Origin: Bacteroides sp.
GTDB taxonomy: Bacteria; Bacteroidota; Bacteroidia; Bacteroidales; Bacteroidaceae
Assembly: GCA_017471925.1 (NCBI GenBank)
Contig: JAFURM010000003.1
Span: forward strand, 34,156-98,155
Length of the DNA: 64,000 nucleotides
Reading direction: 5' to 3'
Shown here: in pieces, positions 56,924 through 64,000 of the stretch
Position numbering within the stretch: the stretch's first letter is position 1
Layout: the number at the start of each line of letters is the position of its first letter
Translations under genes and position numbers: made by a program
Notes under the pieces: generated by a model
What the model saw: only the letters and a program-made list of their open reading frames with translations
What the model was told of the DNA's origin: nothing
Database searches by the model: none

Positions 56924-57006
56924 AGTGTTTTCATTGAGAAGGAAAAAGAATGCAGGGACTTTCTTACTGCCCGTATTGCAAAAAGATGATAAAAAAGAGA
57001 AGGCTG

Positions 57007-57038
57007 CTTGCTTTTCTCATTTCAATGGCTTACATTTG
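57007..57038 (+). promoter_or_regulatory. Promoter of the 57147 gene
   Basis: -7 box TACATTTG (57031-57038) with CTTG (57007-57010) 20 bases upstream. It predicts a ~100-base leader. Confidence 0.6.
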
Positions 57039-57146
57039 CGCTATCACTATAAATAGGCACTGATTAAAGGCGATAGTCCCCAAAAAGGGGTCATCCTTTT
57101 GCTCGTGAAAGATAGTGAGGTGTTGCATTCAAAACGATGAAGAAGC

Positions 57147-58757
57147 ATGGAATTCCGAGTATTGAATAGCATTATCAGTGGTGTGCTTTCGCCGGCCAAC
57201 CTGTCCGATGACTGCATCCACAACAATCGCTTCAGGCAAGATGCCCGGCGGTTGAGAAGATACTCTTATGCTTTTACGGAAATGCAAAACCTCCTCTCTA
57301 CCGTCTTGCAGGAGTGGGGCGAGGCTCCTCCCGACTATCCCGACCTCTCCGTCACTCCGGATCTGCAGAGCCGTCCCGATGACATGATGAACTACATCCA
57401 TCACCTGCGTATGGAAGAGTTTGACCATGTGCTCACTTCGCCCGACTGCCTGCAACTCTCTTCGCCTCTCTTTGACTTCTATGATGCCTTGCTGGCACTG
57501 GAATTCCACACACTGAATCTCCATATTGCGGAGATGCTGCTTCGGCTGCGTTCCCGGACGGATGCCCGCACACTGATTATCGGGGTGCTGGACGACATCT
57601 ATGTCATGGCGGCAAAACTCTATGAAAATGGTTGCTGCCACCTGTCTCCCTCCTTGTGCCGTCATCTCCGGGGAACTTTGGCCTGTTTCTATCTGGAGCT
57701 GAGCGGCCGATACTGTGACCTCCTGGAGAGTGAGGATTATTGCGACTATCATCAGCTGTTGGCTGATCCTCTCTTTGACTTTCCCTTTTCCGAGACGGAG
57801 AAACGGAAGTATGAAATCCTGTGCCTGAACGCCAAAGTGAGGCATCTGTTGGTCTCCTGGAGTATGTCTGTACGCGACAAGTCGGAGGATGGAACCCCCA
57901 AATATAAAGAGTTGGGCAGGGCATACTATGCCTCGTTGTGTGGACTGCTCGAAGGCTTGGCCGACAGTCGTCAGCAGTCTCCTGTTTCTTGGAAGGAACT
58001 GCCAGCCGTTTTGTGGCAGGGAGTGTTGGCGTTAGAGAATTTCCTTTACTGTCTCTACAGCAAACAGTCCACAGACAAATTCCTTTCCTATGTTCTGGTT
58101 ACTGACTCCGGTTGGATGGCTACCCAAATCAGCCATTTCTACAGCTGGGAATTCGATAAGGAGAAAGTCTTTGATGAAGCCCGCAGCATTTGTCATGACA
58201 TCCGCCTCCGACTGATGGAGGAATGCTTCACTTTCTTTGATACCCGACTTCCTGCTTTGAACAGTCTGCCCCGCCGGATATATCTCTATCTGCAACAGCA
58301 ACTGAACCTCTACGAAAACAACTATGATGGCAGGTTCGTTGTCATCAGGGTGGTTCGTGACGAGGATATACCCGATATGCCGGTCACTGTGGCCGATGGT
58401 CCGGACATGGAGGCCATCAGGAAGATATTCGATTTCCTTACCAATGCACGTAGCAAGCATGGCTACAGAATCATGCAGGCCAACGAGGTGGATTTCCTGC
58501 GCCGTCAGTTCCTCTGTTTCGTCAGCAACAAGGGGATTCCGCAGGTGAAGCAGGAGCAGCGTGTAAGGGTGACGGATGGCACGATGGGAGTGGTGCTGGG
58601 ACTCTTTTTCCACTACTGTGCGATTTACAAGCAGGACAAGGAGAAGTATGCCCGTTTCCTTTATGAACACATTGCCAACGACTGCAAGAATTGGAAAGTC
58701 TTCCGCAACAATGCCGCCCATTATCGCAAGGCTTATACTGCGTTCCTGGCTTCATGA
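57147..58757 (+). CDS. Hypothetical 536-residue protein upstream of the VirE/DUF3987/Argonaute-like genes
   Basis: I do not recognise the family. The protein is 536 residues, predicted soluble, without signal peptide or membrane helices, rich in Leu, Cys and aromatic residues, and apparently almost all helical. The last ~80 residues (from VDFLRRQFLCFVSNKG through ...NAAHYRKAYTAFLAS) look like a distinct small domain that could bind nucleic acid or protein, but no motif proves this. Codon use matches the neighbours. It has its own promoter and terminator, so it is not co-transcribed with the HTH gene 266 bases downstream. I considered RteC-type regulators but the conserved RteC C-terminus is not evident. 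Confidence 0.75.
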   Translation: MEFRVLNSIISGVLSPANLSDDCIHNNRFRQDARRLRRYSYAFTEMQNLLSTVLQEWGEAPPDYPDLSVTPDLQSRPDDMMNYIHHLRMEEFDHVLTSPDCLQLSSPLFDFYDALLALEFHTLNLHIAEMLLRLRSRTDARTLIIGVLDDIYVMAAKLYENGCCHLSPSLCRHLRGTLACFYLELSGRYCDLLESEDYCDYHQLLADPLFDFPFSETEKRKYEILCLNAKVRHLLVSWSMSVRDKSEDGTPKYKELGRAYYASLCGLLEGLADSRQQSPVSWKELPAVLWQGVLALENFLYCLYSKQSTDKFLSYVLVTDSGWMATQISHFYSWEFDKEKVFDEARSICHDIRLRLMEECFTFFDTRLPALNSLPRRIYLYLQQQLNLYENNYDGRFVVIRVVRDEDIPDMPVTVADGPDMEAIRKIFDFLTNARSKHGYRIMQANEVDFLRRQFLCFVSNKGIPQVKQEQRVRVTDGTMGVVLGLFFHYCAIYKQDKEKYARFLYEHIANDCKNWKVFRNNAAHYRKAYTAFLAS

Positions 58758-58796
58758 GGCAGAGCGGGTCGGCATATCCCGGCAGTTGTCGCTACG

Positions 58797-58834
58797 AATC
58801 CCTTACGAGCTCTCTTCGTAAAGGGATTTTTTTT
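58797..58834 (+). terminator. Rho-independent terminator of the 57147 gene
   Basis: Stem AATCCCTTACGA / TCGTAAAGGGATT (one bulge) with a short loop, followed by T8, about 40 bases after the stop. Confidence 0.85.
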
Positions 58835-59023
58835 GCATGTTTCTGTAGGGACATAATCGCGTCAGTGAACGGTGGAAAGCTCTGTTAACCAGCGGAAATC
58901 TGTGTTAATACGCATTTGGCCTTTTGCGGATAAAATCGGCATTCTTCCTCTCGTAAAGTGTCGTTTGCAACACGTAAGATACTCGTACCCTTTCTTCGCT
59001 TCCGAACTTTAAAGACAAAGCGT

Positions 59024-59365
59024 ATGAAACAAGAGTATTTTCCATGGTACAGGCTGGAACAGCTGCGCAATGAGCTGGCCGGCATGGCCCGTCTGCTGGA
59101 GCGGGCCGGTGTGAAACCTGCAATTCCCGTAGCCGAGGGATGGGTGGACGGACAGGAAGTGATGAATGCCCTGCACATCAGTGCACGCACCTTGAGCGAC
59201 CTTCGTGCAAAGAGGGTCATCGGCTACACCCGCCTGGGGCGGAAGTTCTATTACAAGTGCAAGGAGATAGACGACATTTTGCAGGACAATTATGTGATGT
59301 ACAACCTGAAGCAGCGCAAGGGCGGGACAGACCCGGCCGACGGCGAGGAAGGAGGCCGCTCATGA
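59024..59365 (+). CDS. Helix-turn-helix DNA-binding protein (excisionase/MerR-like HTH_17)
   Basis: The 113-residue protein has a short helical N-terminus (residues ~8-32). The winged HTH follows with GWVDGQEVMNALHISARTLS, DLRAKRVIGYTRLGRKFYYK and EIDDILQDNYV, the layout of the helix-turn-helix domain 17 family common in Bacteroidales mobile elements. It likely regulates the operon or guides a replication or excision step. It overlaps the next gene by ATGA (59362-59365). Start at 59024 was chosen because the conserved segment follows and an earlier ATG (58958) adds unrelated residues. A weak TACCCTTT box at ~58987-58994, with TTTG about 20 bases upstream, may be its promoter. Confidence 0.88.
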   Translation: MKQEYFPWYRLEQLRNELAGMARLLERAGVKPAIPVAEGWVDGQEVMNALHISARTLSDLRAKRVIGYTRLGRKFYYKCKEIDDILQDNYVMYNLKQRKGGTDPADGEEGGRS

Positions 59366-59970
59366 GCATCATCAACTATTATGACGTGCCTACGCCCCAC
59401 CGTTTCAGCTTCTTCCGTGCTCCCGTGCGCAACACGACTCCCTACAAGAGTGTCTCCGTGCGCCAAATCTACAATGTGGTTACCGGTGACTACTATCGTG
59501 AGACCACCCTGCATCTGCGCAATCTTTGCCGCCTCATGAAGGAGGGGAAGGCCACGAAGCGCGATGTGCAGCGTTTCAAGAGCGAACATTTCGACTATGC
59601 CACCTTCAGCGGTGTCTTTTCGTGCCGCCGCAACGATGCCCTGCTGCAACACAGCGGCCTCCTTTGCTTGGACTTTGACCATCTGGCACAGTGGCGCGAA
59701 AGTCCGTCGGTGGGTGGTGTCTATGGCCTGCGCTACCTCCTGATGAACGACACGGCCGTGGACTCGCGCCTCATTCTGCGTAGCCCCGGTGGCGAGGGAT
59801 TGAAGTGGGTCGTGGCCATAGACCCTTCACAGGCCACTCATGGTGAGTGGTTCGATGCCCTTTCGTTCTATGTAGAGCGCAACTATGGCGTTCAGGCCGA
59901 CCCCTCGGGCCGCGACGTGTCGCGGGCCTGCTATCTGCCGTGGGATCCCGATGCCGTCATCTTTGAATAA
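59362..59970 (+). CDS. BT4734/BF3469-family protein (VirE N-terminal-like domain)
   Basis: The 202-residue protein matches the BT4734-like (PF08800, VirE_N) family: VSVRQIYNVVTGDYYRETT, LCRLMKEGKATKRDVQRFKS, the core GLLCLDFDHLAQW, and the late RSPGGEGLKWVVAID and DPSGRDVSRACYLPWDPDAV. In Bacteroidales this family is regularly paired with DUF3987 proteins and is thought to derive from plasmid or phage primase-replication proteins. No enzymatic activity has been shown to my knowledge. Coupled to the HTH gene by ATGA and 22 bases before the DUF3987 gene. Confidence 0.92.
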   Translation: MSIINYYDVPTPHRFSFFRAPVRNTTPYKSVSVRQIYNVVTGDYYRETTLHLRNLCRLMKEGKATKRDVQRFKSEHFDYATFSGVFSCRRNDALLQHSGLLCLDFDHLAQWRESPSVGGVYGLRYLLMNDTAVDSRLILRSPGGEGLKWVVAIDPSQATHGEWFDALSFYVERNYGVQADPSGRDVSRACYLPWDPDAVIFE

Positions 59971-59992
59971 TCCATTTTAATAAACGACTGTC

Positions 59993-61798
59993 ATGACCAA
60001 CAAGAAATTCAACGTCAACCAGTGGCTGCATCCGTCGGCCACACCGCAAGAACAGGTGGAAACCGTCACCCGTCGCATTGAGCAGGCCGGCATAGACATT
60101 GCCCCGACCTACAAGGAGTGGTGCGACTTGGGCTTTGCCCTGGCTCATGGGTTGGGCGAAGCGGGACGCACCTATTTCCATCGCCTGAGCCGCTACTATG
60201 CCTCCTACAAGCCGCGTGAAGCGGACAAACAGTTCACCGCCTGCCTCACCTCCCGCGGGCAGGGCATCACGCTGAACACCTTCTTCCACCTGGCACGCCG
60301 GGCGGGAGTGGACATTTCCCTGCCCGTTCCGCCATTCCGCCATTCCGCCAATCCGCCAACGGGGGGGCATGATAAAAAACGAAAGGAGCAGCCGCCCCGA
60401 CCGTCACCTTCCGTCCCTGAAGGCGACAGCACTCCGGAGCCATTGCCTGCCTTCCCTCCCCAGGTCTACGACTCCTTGCCAGGCCTGCTGAGTGAGGTGG
60501 TGGGCTATGGCCTCTCGCCCGAAGATACCGACATGCTCCTGTTGGGCAGCCTGACGGTCTTGTCGGCCTGCCTTACGCAGGTGTCGGGCATCTATGGGCA
60601 GCGTCAGGTCTTTCCCAACCTTTATCTCTTTGTCAATGCCCGGGCCGCTACCGGAAAGGGAAGGCTCACCCTGTGCCGTCACCTAGTGGACATTGTACAT
60701 GCCGAACTGCGTCGCCTGAACAAGGCCGAATGGGAGGAGTATCGTCGCCTGAAGTCCGAGTATGATCAGAACAAACGCAAGACAGGCGGTGAGGAACCCC
60801 AGCCGCCTCCGGTAAGGATGCTTTTCGTCCCGGCCAACAGTACGGCAACGGCTCTGTTCCAGACGCTGAGCGAGAACAAGGGGCAGGCTCTGATGATGGA
60901 GACCGAGGGCGACACCCTGAGTACCACCCTGAGCAGTGAGCACGGCAATTACAGCGATGGCTTCCGCAAGGCTTTCCACCATGAGTCCATAGCCTATAAC
61001 CGTAGGAAAGACAGGGAGTATGTGGAGATAGGAACCCCTTGTCTCTCCGTGCTGCTCAGTGGAACGCCGCGCCAGATATCCACCCTTATCCCCGATGCCG
61101 AGAACGGACTGTTCTCCCGTTTCCTCTTCTACACTCTCCCGTTGCGTCCTGTGTGGAACGATGTCTTTGCCGGTTGCGACGAGGATACCCTGGACCTCCG
61201 CTTCTGGCGGTTGGGTGGTCGTTTCCACCGTTTTTATGTGCGCTTGCAACAGGCACGCCCCATAACCTTCACGCTGACCGTGGAGCAGCAGTGCGAGTTC
61301 AATGCCCGCTTCGAAGCCTTGCAGGAGCAGGGACTGGACGAGTATGGACCGGACCTCCTGCCTACCATGCGTCGTCTGGGCCTTTCCGCTTTCCGCATCT
61401 GCATGGTGCTGTCTGTCCTGCGCCTGATGGATGGTGAGGGCGACAAGCCCTTGCCTGAAGTACTGGCCTGCAGGGACGAGGATTTCCGTACGGCCATGCT
61501 CATGGTGCCCGTGCTCTTGCGCCATGCCGGAGAGGTGTATCGCCTGCTGTGTCAGGCGGTGTTGGCCTCCTCCCAACGCCAGCCCCATCCTGTAGATGAA
61601 GGACACCAGCAGCGCATGAAGGCCCTGCTGCAGGCACTGCCCGACCGCTTCTCGCGTGCCGAGTGCATAGAGGCCGCTGCAGGGATGGGCATCACCTTGC
61701 GCTCGGCCGAGCGTTACCTGAGTGAGTACTGTGCTGCGGATTTGGTACTGAAAGACGGACGCGGTGTCTATCTGAAGGCTTCTGCTGTTGTCAAATGA
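59993..61798 (+). CDS. PriCT_2-DUF3987 replication-protein-like ATPase
   Basis: The 601-residue protein has a PriCT_2-type segment in residues ~18-105 (EWCDLGFALAHGLGEAGRTYF, SRYYASYKPREADKQFTACL) like primase C-terminal domains. Residues ~106-155 are a Pro-rich linker carrying a four-copy octamer repeat (FRHSANPPTGG). Residues ~155-600 form the DUF3987 core with a P-loop-like NARAATGKGRLTLC (~216-229), ALMMETEGDTLS and CLSVLLSGTPRQISTLI, ending in a winged-helix-like tail. Such proteins resemble phage/plasmid helicase-primases. Third gene of the HTH operon. The octamer array and an adjacent G7 run at 60361-60367 could shift the frame between the two domains. Confidence 0.9.
   Translation: MTNKKFNVNQWLHPSATPQEQVETVTRRIEQAGIDIAPTYKEWCDLGFALAHGLGEAGRTYFHRLSRYYASYKPREADKQFTACLTSRGQGITLNTFFHLARRAGVDISLPVPPFRHSANPPTGGHDKKRKEQPPRPSPSVPEGDSTPEPLPAFPPQVYDSLPGLLSEVVGYGLSPEDTDMLLLGSLTVLSACLTQVSGIYGQRQVFPNLYLFVNARAATGKGRLTLCRHLVDIVHAELRRLNKAEWEEYRRLKSEYDQNKRKTGGEEPQPPPVRMLFVPANSTATALFQTLSENKGQALMMETEGDTLSTTLSSEHGNYSDGFRKAFHHESIAYNRRKDREYVEIGTPCLSVLLSGTPRQISTLIPDAENGLFSRFLFYTLPLRPVWNDVFAGCDEDTLDLRFWRLGGRFHRFYVRLQQARPITFTLTVEQQCEFNARFEALQEQGLDEYGPDLLPTMRRLGLSAFRICMVLSVLRLMDGEGDKPLPEVLACRDEDFRTAMLMVPVLLRHAGEVYRLLCQAVLASSQRQPHPVDEGHQQRMKALLQALPDRFSRAECIEAAAGMGITLRSAERYLSEYCAADLVLKDGRGVYLKASAVVK
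60327..60358 (+). repeat. Four-copy 8-bp tandem repeat inside the DUF3987 gene
   Basis: Three units TTCCGCCA plus ATCCGCCA (60327-60358), followed by ACGGGGGGG (G7 at 60361-60367). The array encodes RHSANPP in the linker between two domains. The inverse-oriented copy is at 63806-63837. Confidence 0.9.
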
Positions 61799-61801
61799 GA
61801 A

Positions 61802-61819
61802 CCTGTTTTTGAAAACAGG
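61802..61819 (+). terminator. Possible terminator/inverted repeat after the DUF3987 gene
   Basis: CCTGTTTT-TG-AAAACAGG forms a perfect 8-bp inverted repeat 3 bases past the stop. The loop is very short and no U tract follows, so its termination strength is uncertain. Confidence 0.45.
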
Positions 61820-61823
61820 CCCG

Positions 61824-61859
61824 GGACTTGCAAAAGTCCGTCCATTATCGTTATCTTTG
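61824..61859 (+). promoter_or_regulatory. Promoter of the Argonaute-like gene with an overlapping dyad
   Basis: -7 box TATCTTTG (61852-61859) and -33-like CTTG (61827-61830), 21 bases apart, 33 bases before ATG 61893. GGACTT-GCAA-AAGTCC (61824-61839) is a perfect inverted repeat overlapping the -33 box, a likely operator. Confidence 0.7.
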
Positions 61860-61892
61860 TGGCACGACTTGCAACCAACCATAGAAACGATC

Positions 61893-63269
61893 ATGAAAAC
61901 ACTGCTGCTCCACGCCCTTCTGCCCGCTTCGTGTCGGGACACTGCTCCGTCGGCTCTCTGCCGTCAACTGGCCCGCCTGGCCCTGCTTCCTGCCGAGTCC
62001 GGAGGCGGGGCTGCTCCCCGGCGTCTGTTGCGCTATACCGGAGAGGGTGGGGTGGAGGTGTGGCTCCGTGAGCCGGAACAGGCGGCCGATGCTCCCTATT
62101 GCAGCTATCGCCCGTTGCTGTTCCGCCCCTCAGTGGACGGGACGGGAGGGAGCACGGACGGGAAAAGGAGGGTGAAGGTGGCCTTCTGCATCCTGCCTCA
62201 CCGCTATCTCTATGTGGGGCAGAGTGTACTCCGTCTGCACCATGCCGGGGCTTCTCCCGACCTGGTTGCTATAGACGGAGAACTGTTCTCCTATGCCGCC
62301 CTTTCTCTTGCACAGCGCAGGAGACTCGCTGCAGCCTATGCCGTCTATCATCCCTCCTTGAAGGAACTCTTTCCCGGGTCACCCTCCTCCTGCAGCGATG
62401 CCGTGCTCCACCTCAACCGCTATGCCGAAGTGGCACATAGGGTGGAGGAACTGTTGCACTGTTGCTTCCCCGAAGGCGGCCGGCGGGAAGGCGTGCCAAT
62501 GACACTCAGCCTGGAACTGCAGGATGTGCCCGAAGAAGAGGTGAAACACTGTGCGCCCTCACTCTCCTTCAAACGCTTCGGCGAGTCGGGAAAGGGGGTG
62601 GAACCACGTCAGGGACTGGATACCTATGGGGCCTACCGGATGGAGGGTATGCCCGATGTGCCGGTATTGATGGTCTATCCGCAGGGACAGCTCGAGACGG
62701 TGCGCCGCCTGTTCACGCTGTTCGACAGTTTCGTGGAGCGTTACGGTCTGTTGCTGCTGGGCGATGAGAGCGAGTGGATTGCCTATGAGCCTGGTGAAGG
62801 AGTGCTGCAACAGCTGCTCACAGCCGTGACCACCTTTGCACACACCCGTCCCGACCATTCGGCCTATCACCTTTGCTACATGCCTCCCGTGGGTGAAGAA
62901 GCAGTGAAGGTGGCTCCCTATCAGCCGGGCATCTACCTTCGCTCCCTCTGCCACAACTATGGCCTGCACTTCATGGAAGCCTTCTCTGCAGAGCATGTGG
63001 ACACGAGCGAGTTCCGTCGTCGCCTGTCCGACGTGGCTTCGCGCCTGATACTTTCCCTGAAAGGAACTCCCTGGACACTGGCCGACACGGTGAGCCATGA
63101 GGGTGATGTCATAGCCGGTTGTGCCTGGCTGGAGCGAAGAGGCAGGCTGCGTCCGTTGGTGGGCATCACCTTCAGCCATCATCCGCAGCCGGGAACGGAT
63201 ACTGACATTTGCCAGGACTCACCGCGGTTCATTCCTTTCTTTGTACGCAAGTGCAAGGAGATGATGTAG
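61893..63269 (+). CDS. Prokaryotic Argonaute-like protein, N-terminal through early PIWI, ending at an in-frame amber codon
   Basis: 458 residues before TAG (63267-63269). Residues 1-240 form an N-terminal region without recognised motifs. Residues ~240-385 look like a pAgo MID domain (GLDTYGAYRM start, FDSFVERYGLLLLG, and the basic stretch SEFRRRLSDVASRLILSL). At 390-396 comes the widely conserved pAgo motif KGTPWTL, then the first PIWI strands (GDVIAGCAWLERRG, LVGITFSHH) and the helix VRKCKEMM, which is cut by the stop. The first catalytic Asp, expected after IxG, is not there (GCAW). The start at 61893 is set by the promoter at 61824-61859. The frame also opens at 61788, inside the preceding gene. 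MID-PIWI identity is by eye from motif order and comparison with remembered Thermus Argonaute sequence. The rest of PIWI follows in the same frame. Confidence 0.75.
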   Translation: MKTLLLHALLPASCRDTAPSALCRQLARLALLPAESGGGAAPRRLLRYTGEGGVEVWLREPEQAADAPYCSYRPLLFRPSVDGTGGSTDGKRRVKVAFCILPHRYLYVGQSVLRLHHAGASPDLVAIDGELFSYAALSLAQRRRLAAAYAVYHPSLKELFPGSPSSCSDAVLHLNRYAEVAHRVEELLHCCFPEGGRREGVPMTLSLELQDVPEEEVKHCAPSLSFKRFGESGKGVEPRQGLDTYGAYRMEGMPDVPVLMVYPQGQLETVRRLFTLFDSFVERYGLLLLGDESEWIAYEPGEGVLQQLLTAVTTFAHTRPDHSAYHLCYMPPVGEEAVKVAPYQPGIYLRSLCHNYGLHFMEAFSAEHVDTSEFRRRLSDVASRLILSLKGTPWTLADTVSHEGDVIAGCAWLERRGRLRPLVGITFSHHPQPGTDTDICQDSPRFIPFFVRKCKEMM

Positions 63270-63899
63270 GCCTATGCCGATGCCCACAGGGGAGCCTTGC
63301 CCCGTCGCATAGTGCTCTATTGTCGGGAAGGCTTCCCGATGGAGATACTCTGCCGCCTTCGCCGGTGTCTCTACGAGAATGGGGTGGACTGTCCTTTCAT
63401 CCTCATGCTTTTGGGATTGCCCGATGGCGTGTGGCCCACGCTGTTCGACCCCTCCTCTCCCTGCTTCATGCCGCCCGACGGCACCTATGTCCGTCTGTCA
63501 CCCGCCAGCTTCCTCCTTTTCAGCAACGAGTGCAGACCTTCCTATCCGTCACCTCCGAGACGCTATCCGCTGCCCTTGCGTGTCTCTCCGCTCCTCATGG
63601 ACGAACAGGGAAACACGACACCCCTCCCGTCCGACGAGGCCGACCGCATCATGCGCCAGGCCTATCAGCAGACCTGTGTGGACATGGAGAACCTGGACCG
63701 CCCGCTATTGCCGGCCGTGGCCATCCATGCCGCCCGGATAGTGCGCCGTTGCCACAACGATGAAGCCGTCCGTCGGCAAAGCTGGCAATACCTTTCCCAA
63801 AACATTGGCGGGATGGCGGATTGGCGGAATGGCGGAAACTCTCCCGTGGAGCAACAGCAGCCTTCGGACGATGAACCGACCCCTCCGACAGCCTCTTAA
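63270..63899 (+). pseudogene. C-terminal PIWI half of the Argonaute-like protein, in the same frame after the amber codon
   Basis: 209 codons continue directly after the TAG with no other stop until TAA 63897-63899. They read AYADAHRGALPRRIVLYCRE (compare P-x-R-hhhh-RDG of PIWI; here the Asp is Glu479), GFPMEILCRLRRCLYENG, then PDGTYVRLSPASFLLFSNE. The conserved RYPLPLRVSP (pAgo T/P-x-P-L-x-h) is next. The final helix is LPAVAIHAARIVRRC, where catalytic Asp/His would be expected and Arg/Ala stand. A Pro/Gln-rich tail carries an octamer-repeat peptide (GGMADWRNGGN). All catalytic acids thus appear lost. The break could be a recent CAG to TAG mutation, a sequencing error, readthrough, or a split gene re-initiating at TTG 63297. 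Confidence 0.7.
63806..63837 (+). repeat. Four-copy 8-bp tandem repeat near the end of the Argonaute-like gene
   Basis: TGGCGGGA, TGGCGGAT, TGGCGGAA, TGGCGGAA at 63806-63837. This is the reverse complement of the octamer array at 60327-60358, with the same unit and copy number. Confidence 0.9.
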
Positions 63900-63958
63900 G
63901 AGCAGTCTTGAAATTCCAAACATGCAATTCGCTGCAAAACGTTGCAGTCCATACACGA

Positions 63959-63992
63959 TTTGAAAACGCTGTAGTATTCTTCCCTACCTTTG
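63959..63992 (+). promoter_or_regulatory. Promoter reading out of the window
   Basis: -33 TTTG (63959-63962) and -7 TACCTTTG (63985-63992), 22 bases apart, in the 101-base region after the Argonaute-like gene. The gene it drives lies beyond 64000. Confidence 0.65.
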
Positions 63993-64000
63993 TCACACCA

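Follow-up and report, generated by a model that had tools for sequence, protein, structure and literature searches.

The window analysed here, a 64,000-nucleotide stretch of a contig from a gut Bacteroides, carries close to its 3' end a gene whose reading frame is interrupted once by TAG and whose joined translation is, by sequence, a prokaryotic Argonaute (pAgo). The reading that we favor, and hold to be probable with real room for doubt, is that this is a long-B pAgo of the og_54 kind from a clade lacking both the slicer site and the guide pocket, that it was left behind by a decayed element, and that in the window it has suffered a recent nonsense change.

The interrupted frame and its protein family

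The gene is made up of the following parts:

61893..63266, + strand: 5' part of the Argonaute gene, 458 codons (N-terminal part, MID and first part of PIWI), collinear with relatives
63267..63269, + strand: in-frame TAG, codon 459, between PIWI motifs 1 and 3
63270..63899, + strand: 3' part of the Argonaute gene, 209 codons and TAA (remaining PIWI and a repeat-derived tail), with coding signal

An earlier note on this DNA had described 458 codons, a TAG and 209 codons in one frame, and this layout was confirmed: frame 1 of 61893-63899 holds only the TAG at 63267 and the TAA at 63897, against 7 to 35 stops in each of the other five. A codon-usage signal trained on 25 hand-picked long open reading frames (ORFs) of the window amounts to 0.167 bits per codon before the TAG and 0.162 after it and is negative in the other frames on both sides, which suggests that the 3' part lost its coding role only recently. 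The last 30 codons of the frame score -0.159, as non-coding sequence does, and the contig ends 101 bases past the TAA, where the view of 3' genes stops.

The MID-PIWI assignment made in the earlier note is borne out by profile comparisons. The joined protein matches pAgo models of PADLOC with E 8.7e-16 and 3e-14, and each half does so alone (5' half to PDLC02385, E 3e-10; 3' half to PDLC02436, E 1.4e-8). A clade-only profile, A2, built from the window protein and six genus relatives, has a PADLOC pAgo match in all seven rows and aligns by hhalign over 535 columns (99.7 per cent probability, E 3e-27) with 16 order relatives (one belongs to the genus) whose guide pocket is intact. The note had also pointed to the Pfam Piwi model, and there the expectation failed: the only Pfam result was a chance-level one (E 0.33) to an unrelated model. 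Searches of the protein in Pfam, NCBIfam and PHROGs returned no Argonaute family, and a single-protein PDB search returned no match. A mixed profile, A1, found the structure AfAgo (1w9h and others) as its best PDB match with E 6e-11; because A1 contains a pocket-intact relative (L018), the comparison was repeated with A2, which omits it, and significance was then lost, AfAgo coming second with E 2.4 and no PDB structure being significant.

Distribution, phylogeny and selection

Matches to pAgo occur in 12 of 158 genomes of the genus, 6 of 349 in the family sample and 22 of 344 in the order sample, the window's own genome being included each time; G122, also of the genus, has a further pAgo fragment at a contig end, and a scan of genome contigs gave three loci in named Bacteroides records. 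In a tree whose relatives all come from the window's order, ten rows form a Bacteroides clade with support of 100/100 on a branch of length 2.09, the window being its first branch, and the tree tool warned at this clade of long branches meeting and of skewed composition.

Five close clade members (89–95 per cent DNA identity) show signs of purifying selection, with dN/dS (NG86) of 0.22–0.34 over the whole gene in their ten pairs and 0.10–0.23 after about codon 458, the latter part being the lower in 10 of 10 pairs. These ratios suggest that the intact protein does something.

Several relatives are irregular in their own right. The pAgo at L035:6755-8365 (G077) is broken by two in-frame TAGs, has lost its end and carries a deletion across PIWI motif 1; DUF6266 still follows it, and it would seem to be an independent second case of loss. 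A clade member at L033:128-1432 (G084) consists of the MID-PIWI part only (435 aa) and lies near a contig end, with a promoter-like TACATTTGC directly before it. In the relative from G048 (L015 / L020), query residues 188-264 are matched in another frame, as if two frameshifts compensate, and a weak match in the order, from G580, also runs across stops.

Loss of the slicer site and the guide pocket

The first catalytic motif of the window protein reads AGCAWL, with its acid missing, and since the Asp of motif 1 is absent from all 30 aligned rows that cover it, this loss is not particular to the interrupted copy. Motif 3 has Glu in the window and Asp in some clade rows. The protein thus has no complete catalytic tetrad, as the earlier note had proposed, and the lack of a full DEDX is shared with long-B pAgos, all of which are without the tetrad according to PMC6299218.

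The same source describes long-B proteins as having almost exclusively a YK-type pocket for the guide 5'-phosphate and reports that substitutions of pocket residues disrupt guide binding (PMC6299218). This near-universal feature is absent from the window protein and its clade. The pocket positions are G, R, E and S in the window; Y, Q and the final K are kept in 0 of 10 clade rows, and the second position is R in all ten. Relatives outside the clade have Y, K, Q and K in 19 of 20 cases, the exception (L054) being R, A, H and K; the decayed copy L035 (Y, E, M, K) was counted apart, and the site lies outside the span of the G122 fragment. The long branch, the skewed composition and the warning attached to them mean that the residue-level alignment of MID could be off.

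The earlier note expected a protein that binds guides without slicing. With the pocket residues gone from the window protein and from the whole clade, guide binding appears doubtful. The clade may be among the 75 uncharacterised MID* proteins counted in PMC6299218; it shares an altered 5'-end pocket with the MID* and MID-OH pAgos described there, and differs from the MID-OH group, which is long-A and CRISPR-linked, in being long-B-like and placed beside a primase-type block.

The in-frame stop

There is reason to think that TAG is an ordinary stop in this genome, as the earlier note held, given that it terminates 3 of the 25 long window ORFs. No tRNA gene with the CUA anticodon that reads UAG was found among the 49 host tRNA genes (the genome is 89 per cent complete), and code reassignment, already thought unlikely in the note, was rejected on these two grounds. 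The note had left a recent change, readthrough and an error side by side; the codon signal and the open relatives uphold the first and the last. A recent nonsense change is the most likely origin of the stop, and an assembly or draft error comes next.

At the TAG column all 29 aligned relatives that span it are open, a result favored by the choice of these rows as open frames. Six clade relatives have Glu there and the other 23 have many residues; Gln, which the note thought would fit by way of CAG, occurs in none of the 29, and with the column so variable that suggestion finds no support. Of the clade-invariant columns, the window keeps 30 of 45 before the stop and 18 of 26 after it. In six of eight comparisons with relatives its identity drops past the stop (with L009, 0.28 after and 0.33 before), and the trend is the opposite in 7 of 7 relatives compared with L014, a pattern that would fit an older loss.

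It is possible, if on balance unlikely, that the TAG is an artefact of sequencing or assembly and the organism itself has an unbroken gene. The frame stays open and the codon signal equal after the stop, the genome is a draft of 59 contigs with the incompleteness given above, and no close second copy of the window Argonaute gene was found for comparison. An artefact of this sort would, however, have to coexist with another irregularity of this gene, a tail made from a repeat that replaces the end seen in relatives:

63794..63844, + strand: interspersed repeat copy, part of the tail past the end of relatives; other host copies have 91-98 per cent identity
60327..60359, - strand: inverted copy of the same repeat, inside the PriCT_2/DUF3987 gene

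The two window copies, 3.4 kb from each other and each in a different gene, encode the peptides FRHSANPP and MADWRNGG, and the repeat occurs in inverted pairs at four other places in the host genome. Together with the decayed pAgo of another species (G077), the repeat-made tail suggests that the loss is real.

We think it improbable that the 458-aa product works as a truncated Argonaute or that the gene is split, with its 3' part translated on its own. Size does vary in the clade, given the MID-PIWI-only member at L033:128-1432, but there it is the N part that is missing and PIWI that remains, opposite to the window, and the gene begins near a contig end; moreover the TAG cuts PIWI between motifs 1 and 3, and it is the part after the stop that has the lower dN/dS in every pair of close relatives. 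Least credible of all is a programmed or suppressed amber yielding the full protein by readthrough, which the open frame on either side and the G077 relative, whose two in-frame stops are both TAG, might seem to favor, and which has against it the absent CUA tRNA, the use of TAG as a terminator, the relatives that are open at this column (rows chosen as open frames), an unremarkable RNA fold after the stop (z -1.72), the deletion and lost end of the G077 copy, whose TAGs lie at other columns, and the base rate: of the 215 single-step changes that would create a stop in this gene, 99 give TAG, which makes three TAGs (window and G077) little cause for surprise.

If the stop is a recent nonsense change, translation ending at codon 459 is expected to give a product without most of PIWI, which is probably inactive.

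The gene block and its possible mobile-element origin

Upstream of the Argonaute gene on the same strand lies a compact set of genes:

57008..57038, + strand: promoter-like site, Bacteroides-type, before c3
57147..58757, + strand: c3, a 536-aa protein without known family, Argonaute companion; no Pfam and no PDB match
58958..59365, + strand: HTH_17 gene (PF12728, E 1.6e-6)
59362..59970, + strand: BT4734-like_N gene (PF08800, E 6e-13), overlapping the end of the HTH gene
59993..61798, + strand: PriCT_2 and DUF3987 primase/helicase-like gene (PF08707, E 6e-17; PF13148, E 3e-57)
61828..61859, + strand: promoter-like site, Bacteroides-type, TTGC-N20-TATCTTTG, before the Argonaute ATG

The promoter-like sites are predictions from what we take to be the Bacteroides-type promoter consensus, and the window has 6 of them where 0.76 would be expected. 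Rfam gave no match on 57000-64000. The upstream flank is present in 151 of 158 genus genomes.

BT4734-like_N (PF08800, presumably the family formerly named VirE_N) and DUF3987 are found ahead of pAgo in 8 of 10 clade loci, and the remaining two loci begin at contig ends; neither domain was matched at the two non-clade Bacteroides loci, L034 and L035. Two more BT4734-like_N genes lie on other contigs of the window's own genome, so this gene is not tied to pAgo. The former locus, L034:9212-17943 (G055), has c3, HTH, a HipA-type gene, a pocket-intact pAgo and DUF6266, the HipA gene replacing the primase-type genes.

The distribution of c3 is narrower. It was found in 8 of 158 genus genomes, all eight with pAgo, by a search that did not pick up a more distant c3 relative in G055 (recovered by clustering), and in 2 of 344 genomes of the order sample, its own and G490, both with pAgo; hypergeometric values for such counts ignore the kinship of the genomes. 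The c3 relative in G643, which the order search did not list, is a biased match, since the search for it covered ORFs close to the retrieved loci alone. In G490 and G643, which belong to two other families, a tyrosine integrase is followed on the same strand by c3, HTH and primase-type genes, with pAgo further downstream, and in G157 an integrase stands beside c3 and away from pAgo. A role for c3 as effector was considered and dropped; its place beside integrases in other genomes makes a gene of the element core more likely.

The locus in G490 (L173:1034-18441) carries on one strand an integrase, c3, HTH, a BT4734-like_N/DUF3987 gene, type I restriction genes and pAgo, the restriction system lying between the primase-type genes and pAgo, and by gene content it resembles a defence block of mobile-element type. 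No integrase was found by tblastn with two integrase queries in the window or in the 12 Bacteroides pAgo loci, its own included. In Bacteroides a mobile-element origin of the block would be suggested by its likeness to these other loci. A present-day copy on a phage or plasmid was rejected, the joined protein being unmatched in phages and plasmids; peptide patterns of the Argonaute and of c3 gave nothing in viral contigs, and an exact DNA pattern across the stop had no match.

DUF6266 accompanies pAgo on its 3' side. Of 158 genus genomes, 39 have a DUF6266 gene, and so do all but one of the 12 with pAgo; nine of these eleven have it after pAgo on the same strand at a distance of ~170-340 bases, G157 has it at 1.9 kb, and in G048 it lies on other contigs than pAgo. 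None was found in the window's own genome. Its case as the defining partner is weaker, given how widespread it is: 19 of 20 places hand-picked as not beside a known pAgo have no pAgo or primase-type match, and at the remaining one a contig end carries part of a pAgo.

Relation to known systems and possible role

PMC10620215 describes a distinct long-B subclade associated with og_54 VirE-N genes, which are mostly the second to eighth gene upstream of pAgo, and leaves the function of these pAgos to future studies. The window locus fits this description: its PIWI is inactive by motif, and the PF08800 gene is the second upstream. It differs in its pocket, since the clade lacks the YK..Q..K arrangement to which long-B proteins almost exclusively conform (PMC6299218, as above). 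The main text of PMC10620215 makes no mention of an integrase, and none of DUF6266 was found in the papers searched. The BPAN, BPAS and BPAM systems, also described in PMC10620215, likewise pair an inactive long-B pAgo with partner genes on which it relies, but there the pAgo is upstream of its partner, whereas the most conserved partners in the window are upstream of pAgo, and a Pfam scan of the four genes ahead of the window pAgo shows neither a nuclease nor a SIR2 domain.

On this evidence a long-B Argonaute without slicing or the canonical anchoring of a 5'-phosphate guide was probably left behind by a decayed integrative element (c3, HTH, BT4734-like_N, PriCT_2/DUF3987, pAgo, DUF6266), and its MID-PIWI scaffold would have been retained by selection as a binding partner of its neighbors, with the window gene then stopped at codon 459. 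The clade protein would most likely act as a nucleic-acid or protein sensor, or as a partner for neighboring genes, independently of the usual 5'-phosphate-anchored guide. A stronger version, which we put forward tentatively and would not expect to hold in full, is that Bacteroides keeps a domesticated Argonaute scaffold, guide-free or differently guided, together with DUF6266 and an element-derived c3-HTH-primase block, the window being a natural loss-of-function allele.

A clade that is without slicer and pocket, with purifying selection among close members, and set among recurrent neighbors offers a test of Argonaute function without a canonical guide, and c3 and DUF6266 are candidate partners for it. 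At two further loci (L028:7188-8219 and L029:7129-8139) a gene of ~340 aa stands between the primase-type gene and pAgo; Pfam gave no match over its cut-off for the L028 copy, and to our eye the gene looks Rpn/YhgA-type.
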